From Acidobacteria bacterium UBA6911 (GTDB lineage: Bacteria > Acidobacteriota > UBA6911), in contig DKBB01000398.1 of the NCBI GenBank assembly GCA_002451015.1, positions 48,325 through 72,027 of the forward strand: a stretch of 23,703 bases of DNA, written 5' to 3'. The notes beneath the pieces are model-generated. The model ran no database searches and was not told where the DNA came from. It saw only the letters and a list, made by a program, of their open reading frames with translations. Every line of letters begins with the position of its first letter. Position 1 is the stretch's first letter. The position numbers and the translations under genes were made by a program. Shown piece by piece: positions 1,597 to 14,493 of the stretch.

Positions 1597-1624
1597 CGGC
1601 AGCGTTCACAAATTGGAGTGCATC

Positions 1625-2293
1625 ATGGAAAAAAAGACTACAGAGGAAATCGGGGAAGTGCTTGAAGCGGTATGGACACTGCAGGAGCAGGGGATTGCGA
1701 CCGTGGATGAGGTCGTTCGCAGTGCAAAGACCGCGGTTTCGGAAAAACTGCTGGCTCAACTTCAGGAAGAAGGAATGGTGGCGGTCGAGGATTCCGGACG
1801 CATCAACCTACTCCCCAATGGACGCCAGATTGCCGAAAATATCATTCGCCGGCATCGGCTGGCCGAAAGACTGATCTGCGATGCTCTCGGTTCCCATGTG
1901 GAAGACAGTGAAGCCGCCGCCTGTGAATACGAACACGTTCTAGCCGAAGGAATCACGAATTCAATCTGCACCCTCCTCGGACACCCCCGTTACTGCCCAC
2001 ACAACAAACCCATTCCGGAAGGGAGCTGTTGCCGCCAGACCCGCAGCGCATTGAAATCCATTGTAGCATCTTGCGATCAGCTGGATATCGGGGAGTCTGC
2101 GCGTGTCGCATATTTTTCCACCAAGGAACACTCCCGGCTGCTCAAACTGTCCGCGCTCGGGATATCTCCGGGAGTGACAATCAAATTGATTCAGAAATGG
2201 CCTGCCTGCGTGGTTCAGTGCGAAGAAACCGAGATCGCGTTCGAACCGGATGTCGCACGGGACATCCACGTATGGCAAACACCGAAGGAATAA
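1625..2293 (+). CDS. DtxR-family metal-dependent repressor with C-terminal FeoA/SH3-like domain
   Basis: This 222-residue protein is a Fe2+- or Mn2+-responsive DNA-binding repressor. It has a winged-helix domain (about residues 5-68), a dimerization and metal-binding domain (70-140) and an SH3/FeoA-like domain (150-222). The DtxR metal ligands are recognisable at a constant offset of two: H77, E81, C100, E103 and H104 match DtxR H79, E83, C102, E105 and H106. The position of DtxR H98 is E96 here. A CPHNKPIP motif (124-131) followed by a Cys pair (C135, C136) is a further Cys cluster. The ATG at 1625 is preferred over a TTG at 1613 because GGAG lies five bases before it. Its place directly after feoB suggests that it regulates iron uptake. 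Target and metal specificity are inferred. Confidence 0.9.
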   Translation: MEKKTTEEIGEVLEAVWTLQEQGIATVDEVVRSAKTAVSEKLLAQLQEEGMVAVEDSGRINLLPNGRQIAENIIRRHRLAERLICDALGSHVEDSEAAACEYEHVLAEGITNSICTLLGHPRYCPHNKPIPEGSCCRQTRSALKSIVASCDQLDIGESARVAYFSTKEHSRLLKLSALGISPGVTIKLIQKWPACVVQCEETEIAFEPDVARDIHVWQTPKE

Positions 2294-6660: not shown

Positions 6661-7761
6661 CTATTCCCCGCAGACTGCTTTATCCAATTGACCGCTCAGA
6701 AAAGAGGCGTTGCAGGAATTCAAACCGAAACAGCTTTCCCAGACCGCAAGGCTCTCCATGCAAAGATATACTTTCACACGGGGAGCCTCTTCCTGAATCC
6801 AGGCGATCATATTTTTATACATTTCCTCGCGGATCGGCCTGAAATATCGCACTTTCCCATGATGACCGGGAACAAATTCTCCATAGGGTATTTTCGATTC
6901 AGGAAATCGTTTTTTAACCTGATCAATTAAATGAGGCGGGAATCGAAGCGCTCCGAGACTGACCCATGCTATACCGTAAGGATCTACGGTCCGAAAGATT
7001 TCCTTCACCGCTTCCCTGTAATCCTTTTCCCAACCATCGTAAAAAATGAGTGGATCGAAGTGAAATCCCAATCTGTATCCCCACTTTTGACATTGAAGTG
7101 CCGCCGTCAGCCGCTCTTCCAGCAACGGGGATTTTCTTTCCTCGGTCAGGCAGACCCGGTTTGAGTTCACGGACCAGGACACAATCGTGTGACCTTTGTG
7201 CTCTAGGCCTTCCAGGTTGGAGATACAGTCGGATTTTGTTTTAAGTTCAAGAAAACCATTGGAAAGACCGGCAAAGAAGGGGACCAGTCGACGGGAGAAA
7301 CCCGTTAAAGGGTCCAGGGCGAGAGAATCCGCAAGTTCGCCGGTTCCTATTCTGAATATCCTTTGAGGGAACCTCGCAAGTTTTTCATGCACTTCATTCA
7401 ATAAATCTTCAAAATTAGTGCACACTATCAATGCCCGGCTGCTCAGGTAAGACTGCAGAACACAGTAGGTGCAATCCAAATGGCAATTCCAGACGCAACT
7501 GACAACATAATAATTGCAGCATGTATCCGCTCCCGATCCCTGGCACCGCTTCAGGAAACTGCCGGGATAGCGCATCAGGATAAGAGTATCCCTGCCTTTT
7601 AAAGGCCCTTCCGATACAGCGCACGGCTCCACAGGACGAATTTCAGATTCCTTGACCGTGCAGACTTCAACATCCGGCAATCGTCCGAGGATTTCAGATG
7701 TGACGCTATCCTGCCAGGACTCCTCCTGGACCAGTATGCGTTCAGGATGATACGAAAACAT
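6661..7761 (-). CDS. SPL-family (spore photoproduct lyase-like) radical SAM protein
   Basis: A 366-residue radical SAM enzyme. The [4Fe-4S]-binding motif CxxxCxxC is C93-HLD-C97-TY-C100, preceded by further cysteines (C73, C81, C82, C89) and followed by LQSYL, as in the SPL family. Later blocks (ELKTKSD, SWSVNSNRV, GFHFDPLI) are also typical of SPL-type proteins. Spore photoproduct lyase repairs thymine dimers in Bacillus spores. This protein is a distant relative in an organism with no sign of sporulation here, so the substrate is unknown; nucleic acid is the natural guess. It begins 11 bases after the stop of the ParB-domain gene without its own clear Shine-Dalgarno, which implies translational coupling and joint function. 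Confidence 0.88.
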   Translation of the reverse strand: MFSYHPERILVQEESWQDSVTSEILGRLPDVEVCTVKESEIRPVEPCAVSEGPLKGRDTLILMRYPGSFLKRCQGSGADTCCNYYVVSCVWNCHLDCTYCVLQSYLSSRALIVCTNFEDLLNEVHEKLARFPQRIFRIGTGELADSLALDPLTGFSRRLVPFFAGLSNGFLELKTKSDCISNLEGLEHKGHTIVSWSVNSNRVCLTEERKSPLLEERLTAALQCQKWGYRLGFHFDPLIFYDGWEKDYREAVKEIFRTVDPYGIAWVSLGALRFPPHLIDQVKKRFPESKIPYGEFVPGHHGKVRYFRPIREEMYKNMIAWIQEEAPRVKVYLCMESLAVWESCFGLNSCNASFLSGQLDKAVCGE

Positions 7762-7772
7762 AATATTTCTAT

Positions 7773-8747
7773 CTATACGACTTTAAATAGCTTATCCAAT
7801 TCAGGCCCCTGAGAGGCTTCGAAGAGTTCGGCGACCATCTTCCGGAACTGTTCGGCATTGGGAGCTTTAAAGTCCACCCGGAGGTCGGGGGTTTCAAAAA
7901 ACGGCGCCGGAGTAATCCTAATAGAGCCCGGCAATCCCAAAGACTTCTTTAGTTTCCCAAAACGTTCCTCGGCCTGGATCACTCTTGGATACCGCAAACG
8001 GTAAAGAAGCCCATAAATCCTCTCCCCCCGTTGAAAAGGGGACAAACCGGCATCCTTTAAAGCCGACAGCGCTTCAGGATCACTGAAAGGAGCCTCAGGC
8101 TTCTTTCTATTCTTCGCGGCCAGCTCCTCAAGCAGGCTGAAAAATTTTTTCTGCAGACCAGCGCTCAAACGCATTCCTTCCAGTGCAGACGCGATGGACG
8201 CCTGAGACGAAGCATGCATTGTCGCAAGGTATTGCAGGCTGGAGAGAGTCAGCCTACCTTGACTGAAATGATTTTTCAGTTCCGGGTGAGACGCATGCAG
8301 CATTATATGGGTTTTCAGTGTCTGTTCATGAGGCGCCAGGTCCATCATGGGCAGGAAATCCTTTATTATCAATTCATCCGAAACGCCGAAATCATACCTG
8401 AGCTTGTAGAGCACTCTGGCCTGCTCCAGAGGATCCAATTTCCTATGAGAAAGATTGTCCCAGAGGGCCAGCCTGAAGAGACCGGGCAAATCCCGATCCG
8501 TCTCTTCGATAATCCGTGCAAACACGCGGGTCGCATTTAACTGTCGCAGAGCGTGCAATCGTCTGAATCCGCACACAACCGTATACGGGCGTCCTCCTCT
8601 CATCAATACGACAGGATTCAACTGCCCGATTTCTCGCATGGATATTTGCAGCGGAGCGGAAACAATCTCTTCGCTGATCCTGAAAATCTCATTCGTGCAA
8701 TCAATCGCTTCAATTGATATGTCTTGGCAGATCATGCCAAAAAGCAT
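7773..8747 (-). CDS. ParB N-terminal domain protein
   Basis: A protein of about 324 residues with a ParB/Srx-like N-terminal domain. It has the sequence GQLNPVVL, then a GFRR motif at about residues 60-63 followed by the helix LHALRQLNA. ParB folds of this kind bind CTP or ATP. The middle (about 90-190) is helical and could be a DNA-binding region; the C-terminus is charged and not recognised. The frame stays open upstream to about 9380, but that would run through the opposite-strand TPR gene and its promoter. I therefore place the start at the ATG at 8747 (an ATG at 8735 is also possible), just before the recognisable domain. No ParA gene is adjacent, so plasmid or chromosome partition is not supported. 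It forms a two-gene unit with the SPL-like enzyme. Confidence 0.8.
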   Translation of the reverse strand: MLFGMICQDISIEAIDCTNEIFRISEEIVSAPLQISMREIGQLNPVVLMRGGRPYTVVCGFRRLHALRQLNATRVFARIIEETDRDLPGLFRLALWDNLSHRKLDPLEQARVLYKLRYDFGVSDELIIKDFLPMMDLAPHEQTLKTHIMLHASHPELKNHFSQGRLTLSSLQYLATMHASSQASIASALEGMRLSAGLQKKFFSLLEELAAKNRKKPEAPFSDPEALSALKDAGLSPFQRGERIYGLLYRLRYPRVIQAEERFGKLKKSLGLPGSIRITPAPFFETPDLRVDFKAPNAEQFRKMVAELFEASQGPELDKLFKVV

Positions 8748-8794
8748 AACGAAACAGGGTCGGGCTCTACAACAAGCAACTGCATTTTCATTTG

Positions 8795-10541: not shown

Positions 10542-12656
10542 TTATTCTTTTACTACGTTCAATGCCTGTTCGGCAGCAGCAATCAGGACTTCAGGACCGA
10601 CAGGAGAACCCGTCGCATCCTTCATCCATAGATCGGGGGCAATCCGGCCCAACCGTGCCACCCTTTCGAATTCCGGCCCGATCCTGCCCGTTTTCTTCAT
10701 ATGTTCTTCCAACTGAAACGCAATCATATGACCCAGGGGGTAGTCCGGAAGATAGAGAAAATTATTGATCATATGGGAATAGATCCCCAGCATCGTAACA
10801 TTCTCTATTTTAAAAACCGGTGCATAATAGCGATTCCATATATCTCTCGAGATCTCCAGAACGGCATCGCGCAATTGATCCGGAGTAGCGTCGGGATGCC
10901 CGTACATCCAGTGCCACACACCCATGTCGACCATACTTACGCCGCAGATTTCATAGGTCGCCCAGAAATTGTTCAGCGCCTTCAAGGCTTCCGCCTGCCG
11001 GTCGGGCCCCTGCAGTCCAAGTAATTGCAGATCCCGTCCCTGAAATACAAAAGCCAGCGCTTCGGTAAACGCGGTATTCGGCACTCCGTTCAGAGAATAA
11101 TAGTCCACATGATGCAGGGAGATAGTCTGCTCGACATTGTGTCCCAGTTCGTGTACGGCGATATTGAAACCTTTGTAGTTCATGCCCGATTCCCCGATCC
11201 GGGTTCGGAGATGCGCCTTGCCCTGGCGCATCGCGGCGCCCATGGCATGGCCGGAACCGCGGGCGGGATCCACCACGATTTGATCGGACAGAAATTCCGC
11301 ACTCTCGCGGGTGAAATCGAGTGTCTTCAACATCACTGGAATGGCTTCGCCGAACGATTCCGCATCGGGATACCGGGCTGCCACCATAGCATCGAGCTCA
11401 TCCTGGGAATATTGCATCCGGGGGCGGAAACCGTTGTACCAGATATCGAAGGGTTCCAGCCGACGGCCCAGCCTCTTCTCTATCAGGGCGGCAATACGCG
11501 GCAGAATGGGAGACGAAAGCACCTGCTCGAACATTTCCTGAACACGCTCTTCCGGGATCTGCCGGTCTTCATTGAAACGTCGTGTCATCAGACTGGGAGC
11601 GTCGGGATTATATGGATCGGCAAGTTTTACAGCCTGAAAGTTTTCAAGCAGCATCCGATACCGGGTGTTCGGTTCCGGAGTGTTGACCGCTTCCCGGTCC
11701 CCCGGAGAAAAATCCGAATCCTTTTCCGAAACGGGTTCCACTGTGTTGGTGTAAGGATTCCAGTCCAGTTGTGGATTATTGATGACCGATTCGGGTATGG
11801 TCTGATCAATGATCCGCTCCATTACTCTTTGAATCATGCGCTGTTTTGCAGGACCGTTTTCTGAATCGGCATAATTCGCTTTAATCTCGTCCCGCAGGTT
11901 CCAATGGGACAAAAGGCGCAGTTTGGGAGGAAAAAGACGGTGCCCTTTTTCGTCGATCAAGTGATGCATCCAGATGTTATATTCCGAAATATAGCGCTCT
12001 GATGCCGACTCCGCTTCCGATATGGCCTGGTTGACTTCGGCGGGGATACGCTTGGAAAAAAATTCCGCAAGACGGGTTTCAGCCCACTGGCGCCTCGTCC
12101 AATTCCCGCCCTCGGCCAATCGTTCCTCCAGTGTGGTCAATGGGAAATTCAAAAGCACGACAAAAGCCAGCTTATTATTGAAAAAGTCGTCATTCAGGTG
12201 GGCAAACGAATCATAGCCTGCAAAGATCTCGTCATAAGGTGCAATCGGCCCTGTATCCAGATCCACATGCTGGCGGAATTCGCGATTGATTTCGTTCAAA
12301 TGTCCGAACGCCTGTTCGAACAGGCGATTGAACCGGGCAAATGCCGTATCCAGTGCATCCTGATCCCGGATGAAATTTTCGGAGACAAACTCTTCGAATT
12401 CGGACTGATCCCCGTCGCTAACGCGCCAGAACCTGGCCATCTGTTTCAATCCCCGGCTCAGGCGGAAACCCTGATTTTCACCATACTTTTCCGTCAGGTC
12501 TTCTTCGAGTTTCCGGACTGCCGAATCCATCCATGCGGGCGGCGCAGCGGCAGCGTTAAAAGCGGTTTTCTGCGAATTATTCATGCGTGACTCCTGCGAA
12601 CAGGACATTGACAGGATAAGTCCAAAGCTTAATAAAAGAAATCGAGGATATTTCAT
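10542..12656 (-). CDS. Secreted gluzincin zinc metallopeptidase (M2/M3-like), putative lipoprotein
   Basis: A 704-residue protein with an N-terminal signal peptide ending in LILSMSC. This resembles a lipobox but has Ser at the -3 position, so lipidation is uncertain. The zinc motif is H502-E503-L504-G505-H506. A downstream glutamate at about 532 (in FTEALAF) is at the spacing expected for the third ligand in M3-like peptidases of clan MA. The region H-H-V-D-Y-Y-S-L-N-G between them also fits a substrate-contact loop. It probably degrades peptides in the periplasm or at the outer membrane. The family cannot be fixed as M2 or M3 by eye. It follows the metallo-beta-lactamase-fold gene on the same strand by 115 bases, so both may be co-transcribed. 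Confidence 0.82.
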   Translation of the reverse strand: MKYPRFLLLSFGLILSMSCSQESRMNNSQKTAFNAAAAPPAWMDSAVRKLEEDLTEKYGENQGFRLSRGLKQMARFWRVSDGDQSEFEEFVSENFIRDQDALDTAFARFNRLFEQAFGHLNEINREFRQHVDLDTGPIAPYDEIFAGYDSFAHLNDDFFNNKLAFVVLLNFPLTTLEERLAEGGNWTRRQWAETRLAEFFSKRIPAEVNQAISEAESASERYISEYNIWMHHLIDEKGHRLFPPKLRLLSHWNLRDEIKANYADSENGPAKQRMIQRVMERIIDQTIPESVINNPQLDWNPYTNTVEPVSEKDSDFSPGDREAVNTPEPNTRYRMLLENFQAVKLADPYNPDAPSLMTRRFNEDRQIPEERVQEMFEQVLSSPILPRIAALIEKRLGRRLEPFDIWYNGFRPRMQYSQDELDAMVAARYPDAESFGEAIPVMLKTLDFTRESAEFLSDQIVVDPARGSGHAMGAAMRQGKAHLRTRIGESGMNYKGFNIAVHELGHNVEQTISLHHVDYYSLNGVPNTAFTEALAFVFQGRDLQLLGLQGPDRQAEALKALNNFWATYEICGVSMVDMGVWHWMYGHPDATPDQLRDAVLEISRDIWNRYYAPVFKIENVTMLGIYSHMINNFLYLPDYPLGHMIAFQLEEHMKKTGRIGPEFERVARLGRIAPDLWMKDATGSPVGPEVLIAAAEQALNVVKE

Positions 12657-13686: not shown

Positions 13687-14148
13687 CTAACTTACTGCCT
13701 CCATAACCAGTGGAACGGTATCGTCCGGTTTTACCTTATACCAAGCCTGTAGCACGTTGGCTCTTTCATCAATCAGGAAAGATGAGCGGATAATTCCTTC
13801 ATATTTCTTTCCGTACATGGACTTCTCACCCCATGCGCCGTAGGCTTTGGCGACTTTATTATCCGGGTCCGAGAGAAGCGGGAATCCCAGCTTATATTTC
13901 AGGTCGAACTTCATCTGTTTGTCCGGCGGATCGGGGCTGATGCCTACTGCCGCAATCCCGATTTTATTCAAATCCTTCAGGGAGGCGCTGACACTGCAGG
14001 CCTGTTTCGCTCAACCGGAAGTATTCGCCTTCGGGTAGAAATACAGAAGCAATTTCTTGCCCTTGTAATCGGATAGTTTGATCTTTTTCCCGTCCTGGTC
14101 CATCAATGAAAAAGCAGGCGCCTTACCGCCCGGTTCCAATGCCGCCAT
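13687..14148 (-). CDS. Selenocysteine-containing BCP-type peroxiredoxin (UGA read as Sec)
   Basis: One continuous reading frame of 154 codons encodes a BCP/AhpC-TSA peroxiredoxin, interrupted only by TGA at 14011-14013 (codon 46). Residues before it ([13 protein letters not shown]) and after it ([18 protein letters not shown]) match the family's TPGCTxxAC active site. The TGA is therefore exactly at the peroxidatic cysteine, with the resolving Cys at 51 (+5). The remaining frame ([40 protein letters not shown]) is intact to TAG at 13687. The ATG at 14148 has a strong GGAGG seven bases upstream. The enzyme would reduce hydroperoxides using thioredoxin. I infer Sec insertion from the TGA position, the intact frame and the downstream hairpin; a Cys-to-stop mutation is the alternative. 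Automatic annotation would split it into two fragments. Confidence 0.85.
13983..14013 (-). promoter_or_regulatory. Bacterial SECIS-like hairpin directly after the UGA
   Basis: Seven bases after the UGA, AGGCCUG (14003-13997) pairs with CAG (13990-13988) and GCCU (13986-13983), with one bulged C at 13987. The apical loop CAGUGU (13996-13991) contains a GU about 17-18 bases after the UGA. Bacterial SECIS elements are hairpins in the coding region just after UGA with a G/U-containing apical loop in about this range. The fold was drawn by hand, not computed. Confidence 0.6.
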
Positions 14149-14193
14149 GATTTGTCCTCCTATCGTTTGAATTCGGTTCGTCCATTGCAACGA

Positions 14194-14493
14194 CCAGCCA
14201 GTCGGTCGCTCCCGATTGGACCTCATCCAAGCCGTCATCCCGTCGATTACCCTGTAGGTGTCCCCATAACAGGCGCATTCTGAAGACTCCCGGCTATATT
14301 GGAGCGATACCCGGATCGGCATATAACGAAATATGACTCTTCTTGTCCCGGATATCAACACTCCTTCGCGCCAGATCCGCAATCGGCATGCGGATAGCTT
14401 TGTCGCACTGCCAGCAATTCCCCCCCTCTTCACAAAACAAGTCGAAGACAACATAATCCGGGTATTTCCTCAAAACATCCAGGGAGGGAACAT
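14194..14493 (-). pseudogene. Rhodanese-domain gene broken by frameshifts
   Basis: Between dnaE2 and the peroxiredoxin gene, pieces of one rhodanese domain appear in order in three frames. Frame 1 (from about 14482) gives [15 protein letters not shown] and then [12 protein letters not shown]...DIRDKK. A second frame (about 14342-14283) gives [18 protein letters not shown], which contains the active-site loop CRSGYR with the catalytic Cys at 14321. A third frame (about 14280-14196) gives [15 protein letters not shown]. An ATG at 14493 with AGAGG upstream sits in yet another register and stops after seven codons. At least two internal shifts are needed, plus one near the start. A run of seven G near 14420 could be a sequencing weak point. 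An intact version would transfer sulfane sulfur. The last frame runs without a stop into the peroxiredoxin start. Confidence 0.72.

Follow-up and report, generated by a model that had tools for sequence, protein, structure and literature searches.

A BCP/PrxQ-type peroxiredoxin gene of an Acidobacteriota bacterium with UGA at the peroxidatic cysteine position: a probable selenoprotein

The question raised by this locus is whether a TGA triplet within an otherwise intact peroxiredoxin gene of Acidobacteria bacterium UBA6911 is read as selenocysteine (Sec), or whether it reflects a damaged gene, an erroneous sequence or a changed genetic code. The stretch of DNA analyzed here, referred to as the window, comprises 23,703 nucleotides of contig DKBB01000398.1. 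The overall evidence is that the gene very probably encodes a single-chain BCP/PrxQ-type peroxiredoxin of a bacterium of the Acidobacteriota that decodes UGA as Sec, as the original prediction of a probable selenoprotein had proposed.

The gene lies on the minus strand (13687..14148) and, translated from 14148 to 13687, runs from an ATG (14146-14148) to a TAG stop (13687-13689), giving 153 residues with a single internal TGA at codon 46 (14011..14013, minus strand), beyond which the frame continues normally for the 107 further codons that had been described. The ribosome-binding site, AGGAGG (14156..14161, minus strand), is spaced 7 nt from the ATG, in agreement with the strong site first proposed. 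Under the standard code the gene is split into two ORFs, whereas with TGA kept open it forms one frame; the enzyme is therefore easily missed, which bears out the expectation that standard gene calling would miss or split it.

Profile searches, in which the TGA was read as Cys, place the product in the family originally named, i.e. a BCP-type peroxiredoxin intact except for one TGA: the NCBIfam model NF006960 (thioredoxin-dependent thiol peroxidase/BCP) matches residues 1-152 with 165.4 bits (cut-off 140), and the Pfam AhpC-TSA model matches with 126.1 bits. A PrxU identity was considered and rejected, the NCBIfam model NF040737 giving 52.6 bits against a cut-off of 270. The active site motif is P39-x3-T43-x2-U46, with the conserved Arg of the PxxxTxxC/U type of active site present as R121, and the TGA thus falls exactly at the position of the peroxidatic Cys. 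In an alignment of 20 sequences T43 and R121 are invariant, as is Cys51 (TGC; 13996..13998, minus strand), the candidate resolving residue at +5, which is retained as predicted. A resolving Cys at +5 corresponds to the α2 type of BCP/PrxQ enzyme.

The comparison with homologues that had been proposed, i.e. whether the catalytic position is Cys or TGA elsewhere, found both. Among related genome loci (the best 80 of 274), the aligned catalytic codon is TGC in 41, TGT in 24 and TGA in 15, the last comprising, by record title, 11 loci from Desulfobacterales or relatives, three from Deltaproteobacteria and one from Myxococcota (L054). At the protein level, 120 homologues were listed from 7994 database matches, and Cys occupies the catalytic position in 119 of them; standard-code protein calls can hardly show a TGA at this position. 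The sole non-Cys entry among the 120 listed of 7994, P0003, which ranks second and is 85% identical to the window protein, has Trp there, probably because a TGA was translated under code 4. Other entries, such as P0122 and P0124, start only past the Sec position, and these late starts suggest interrupted frames elsewhere. Two of the four neighbors of the window peroxiredoxin in its tree group (P0003 and P0122) thus carry signs of an interrupted frame. Two residues close to the catalytic position differ in frequency between Cys and TGA loci, in counts that are not corrected for relatedness: Cys at +5 is present in 59 of 65 Cys loci versus one of 15 TGA loci, and Ser44 (as in TSG-U) in 13 of 15 TGA loci versus six of 65 Cys loci. 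The window protein has both.

The surrounding genes were compared with those of the syntenic sibling locus L001, which belongs to the genome G001 (MAG Acidobacteria Zod_Metabat.95). A search of 396 genomes from the phylum of G001, of which 166 had a match at 1e-30, revealed no closer relative than G001 among the matches listed, which are a part of the total. Searches for sel genes covered G001, its order (15 genomes) and 14 control genomes. G001 itself has SelA (550 bits), SelB (407.2 bits), a tRNA-Sec (72.5 bits, anticodon TCA) and two SelD genes (369.4 and 356.9 bits), each of the latter with one in-frame TGA. Within the order, the cut-off was passed by SelB in 15 genomes, SelA in 14, SelD in 14 and tRNA-Sec in 12, compared with two, one, two and five, respectively, of the 14 controls; SelD genes bearing a TGA occur in 13 genomes of the order. 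Weak tRNA-Sec matches mean little, because five of the 14 controls pass the cut-off, and 11 of the 12 tRNA-Sec matches in the order score at least 68 bits. From the presence of SelA, SelB, SelD and tRNA-Sec in G001 and its order, it is therefore likely that the organism of the window also decodes Sec. The order of G001 looks rich in selenoproteins. In five of its genomes (G001, G002, G005, G006 and G011) there are at least two peroxiredoxin- or thioredoxin-like matches with one TGA each, and in the loci checked this TGA aligns with the catalytic position.

Elsewhere in the window TGA behaves as an ordinary stop, ending feoB, dnaE2 and a CYTH gene, and Trp is encoded by TGG in the window genes. 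A dnaE2 frame running past its TGA was considered as a recoded gene and rejected, since the downstream part is a remnant of a rhodanese sequence. Inspection by eye of the open frames of the window gave no convincing case of another TGA-interrupted gene. Scans of the window with Rfam (gathering scores) and for tRNAs were empty, and a promoter scan upstream of the peroxiredoxin gene was uninformative (two sites versus 1.0 expected).

The sibling locus has seven genes in common with the window, with 71-88% protein identity, two of them being cut by contig ends. Other genes of the window include one for a 704-residue protein with a HELGH motif, noted by eye (10542-12656, minus strand; 83% identical in L001), which matches no NCBIfam model and reaches Pfam Peptidase_M57 only below its threshold (17.8 versus 21). 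There is also a metal regulator of the DtxR type (1613-2293, plus strand), which carries a C-terminal FeoA domain and whose gene immediately follows feoB. At 6661-8750 (minus strand) a spore-photoproduct-lyase-like protein (115 bits versus a cut-off of 400) adjoins a protein that is ParB-like by eye and has no Pfam match at 0.01; the last two are both kept in L001, the spore-photoproduct-lyase-like one only in part owing to a contig end.

The positional counterpart of the peroxiredoxin in the sibling (L001:3506-3964) encodes a protein 80% identical to that of the window, with TGC as the catalytic codon. Comparison of the two genes gives a dN of 0.142 ahead of the TGA (codons 1-45) and 0.098 beyond it (codons 47-153), and pS is approximately 0.7 in both parts; the whole-gene dN is 0.110, compared with 0.062-0.181 for six neighbor genes. 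The frame is thus constrained on both sides of the TGA. By contrast with dN, the dS of the peroxiredoxin pair (1.81; window 13687-14148 versus L001:3506-3964) exceeds the values for the six neighbor genes (0.46-0.87), so the two may not be strict orthologues. The pair probably split earlier than the neighbor genes, be it by replacement, by loss of a copy where there had been two, or by unusual synonymous change, and the two proteins also fall in different tree groups. The sibling thus demonstrates Sec machinery in a relative, rather than a Cys-to-Sec change between strict orthologues.

The gene order also differs. L001 has, in sequence, dnaE2, a regulator of the Fur family (closest to PerR models and below their cut-offs), a PrxU gene (1222-1938; 407.8 bits, which passes the PrxU cut-off) whose catalytic codon is TGA, in DFTFV-U, a gene with metallo-β-lactamase (MBL) and rhodanese domains, which is intact, and the BCP-type peroxiredoxin gene. 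The set formed by the regulator, PrxU, MBL-rhodanese and peroxiredoxin genes is likely a peroxide-defense cluster that is absent as such at the window locus, where neither the regulator nor PrxU was found between dnaE2 and the peroxiredoxin gene. What is present in this interval is a decayed and frameshifted piece of the MBL-rhodanese gene, from its rhodanese end (14227..14477, minus strand; identified by tblastx, blastn and reading frames), which suggests loss in the window. Since this adjacent operon mate has decayed, decay has been active in the interval that holds the peroxiredoxin gene.

The original prediction also noted a SECIS-like hairpin starting 7 nt past the UGA. Such a hairpin exists (13983..14003, minus strand), pairing AGGC-CUG with CAG-c-GCCU at -7.7 to -7.9 kcal/mol, with the loop CAGUGU in the minimum free energy (MFE) form; its distinction from chance did not hold up. 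Of 200 dinucleotide shuffles, 157 fold as well or better (z +0.76), and 55% of random synonymous recodings fold at least equally well. The bSECIS model, as set out in PMC13188914, has a loop of 3-9 nt, a stem of 4-16 bp, G in loop position 1 or 2, a spacing of 16-37 nt and an MFE of at most -7.5. The MFE form (-7.9) misses two of these limits, its spacing being 14 and the G being third in the loop, whereas a suboptimal fold (-5.5 kcal/mol, loop GUG, spacing 16 nt) agrees with the model in geometry and not in energy. The hairpin was rejected as decisive evidence on the basis of the shuffles and recodings. Some accepted bacterial selenoprotein genes likewise miss the bSECIS model, according to PMC13188914 and PMC12013277, so the hairpin is better regarded as neutral than as contrary evidence. 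Across the related loci, folding past the catalytic codon is more stable at TGA than at Cys loci, both for the mean folding z (-0.96 for 16 TGA loci versus -0.11 for 66 Cys loci, P = 0.013) and for the mean MFE (-12.2 for 32 TGA rows versus -8.9 for 76 Cys rows, P = 0.0013), in each case with relatedness not removed; the 32-row set includes the window and counts some places twice. The window hairpin is not among the stable TGA-locus folds.

The main rival to Sec is a recent nonsense mutation, in which a Cys codon became TGA during the decay of the regulator-PrxU-MBL/rhodanese-peroxiredoxin cluster. The missing or decayed state of the cluster genes in the window, the TGC codon of the sibling counterpart and the weak SECIS signal are what such a mutation would lead one to expect. 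The position of the TGA is not: of the 1377 single-base changes in the L001 gene, which is intact and has TGC, 60 give a stop, ten of them TGA, and only one of the 60 stop-making changes meets codon 46, so that chance would not readily place a TGA at the catalytic codon. Outside codon 46 the frame is constrained like the neighbor genes, which counts against loss of function, while being still compatible with a very young mutation. Recurrence of TGA at the aligned codon in 15 of the best 80 of 274 loci, the signs of interrupted frames in two of the four group neighbors and Sec decoding in the order of the sibling likewise speak against simple damage, and a nonsense mutation is in our judgment improbable.

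Less probable still is an error in sequencing or assembly that conceals a TGC or TGT codon. The TGA is known from a single DNA copy, and TGC or TGT is found in 65 of the best 80 of 274 loci; an error would, however, have had to strike exactly codon 46, the Trp of P0003 and the short P0122 hint independently at TGA in close relatives, and the window has Ser44, which is associated with TGA in related loci. A changed genetic code, with TGA read throughout as Trp or Gly, might account for the Trp with which P0003 is translated; it was rejected, as TGA is the stop codon of three window genes (feoB, dnaE2 and CYTH) and TGG the codon for Trp in the window genes, and we give it almost no weight. Trp or Gly at the peroxidatic position would moreover abolish peroxiredoxin chemistry. 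Sec is favored over these alternatives because TGA recurs in relatives, the sibling and its order have Sec-decoding machinery, the frame is constrained on both sides of the TGA, and TGA is a normal stop in the window.

If the codon is read as Sec, family knowledge suggests how the enzyme would be made and would work. SelB and Sec-tRNA(Sec), presumably encoded in the genome of the window organism, would insert Sec at codon 46, possibly aided by the short stem-loop just past the UGA. The U46 selenolate would attack the peroxide in a site formed with P39, T43 and R121, and the resulting selenenic acid would be resolved by Cys51 to give a selenenyl sulfide, which thioredoxin would reduce.

With regard to how the Sec state arose, there are at least three changes of state on an 80-row tree for which the columns of the active site were masked. 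A single origin of all TGA versions was rejected (16 TGA rows together, AU p = 0.00036), as was placing the window sequence together with the 12 main TGA rows (AU p = 2.8e-6); the Sec state of the window has an origin separate from that of the main deltaproteobacterial Sec clade. A larger tree puts the window within a 47-row group (99/90) without any other TGA locus, where it adjoins P0003, P0005, P0010 and P0122 in an open fork of weak support (80/76). The listed members of this group have Cys, except for P0003 (Trp) and cut-short entries. Because the surrounding rows have Cys, a change from Cys to Sec is the more economical interpretation, while the counts of changes do not show direction. 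It may be, as a tentative reading that we consider possible rather than probable, that the gene is a young Cys-to-Sec replacement caught at an intermediate stage, with Sec in a Cys group, a minimal, barely folded SECIS and the +5 Cys kept, unlike in the larger Sec clade of Desulfobacterales and relatives. If the replacement is indeed young, the switch may be connected with PrxU, since the sibling retains a Sec-PrxU gene close to its Cys version and this locus has none.

With Sec at codon 46, the locus represents a further Cys/Sec switch among peroxiredoxins, separate from the main Sec clade of this comparison. The window Sec enzyme and the L001 Cys enzyme, 80% identical and from the same genome place, form a pair in which the effect of Sec can be studied with the +5 Cys kept. 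The locus is also an example of good evidence for a selenoprotein despite an unremarkable downstream hairpin.

Sec peroxiredoxins are, as the original prediction stated, a known class. The Sec peroxiredoxin (Prx, TxxU) of Eubacterium acidaminophilum has been known since 2001 (Sohling et al., as cited in PMC13188914), and a 2006 survey recorded 12 Sec peroxiredoxins and five Cys-to-Sec events (PMC1794560) and an ocean survey 253 Sec peroxiredoxins (PMC2398784). A literature search of titles and abstract openings, with most subscription journals outside its range, yielded no named Sec-BCP of Acidobacteriota. The E. acidaminophilum enzyme resembles that of the window in having Sec in place of the peroxidatic Cys in PxxxTxxU within an AhpC/TSA fold; by contrast with the Sec Prx/PrxU enzymes, the window protein is of BCP/PrxQ type and scores far below the NCBIfam PrxU cut-off. 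Typical BCP/PrxQ proteins (NF006960) share its length, fold family, active site motif and +5 Cys, but have a Cys codon where the window has UGA. Fourteen of the TGA loci (L025-L028, L032-L034, L038-L040, L042, L043, L045 and L046), i.e. those of Desulfobacterales or relatives and of Deltaproteobacteria, are like the window in having TGA at the aligned codon, and 13 of the 14 share TSG-U, whereas none of the 14 has the +5 Cys; 12 of them group together to the exclusion of the window. The myxococcotal locus L054 combines TGA with the +5 Cys as in the window, but is only 53% identical and has a TPG-U motif. The window peroxiredoxin thus adds to the known Sec-peroxiredoxin class, in which it is distinctive for its retained +5 Cys and for the similar Cys enzyme of its sibling.
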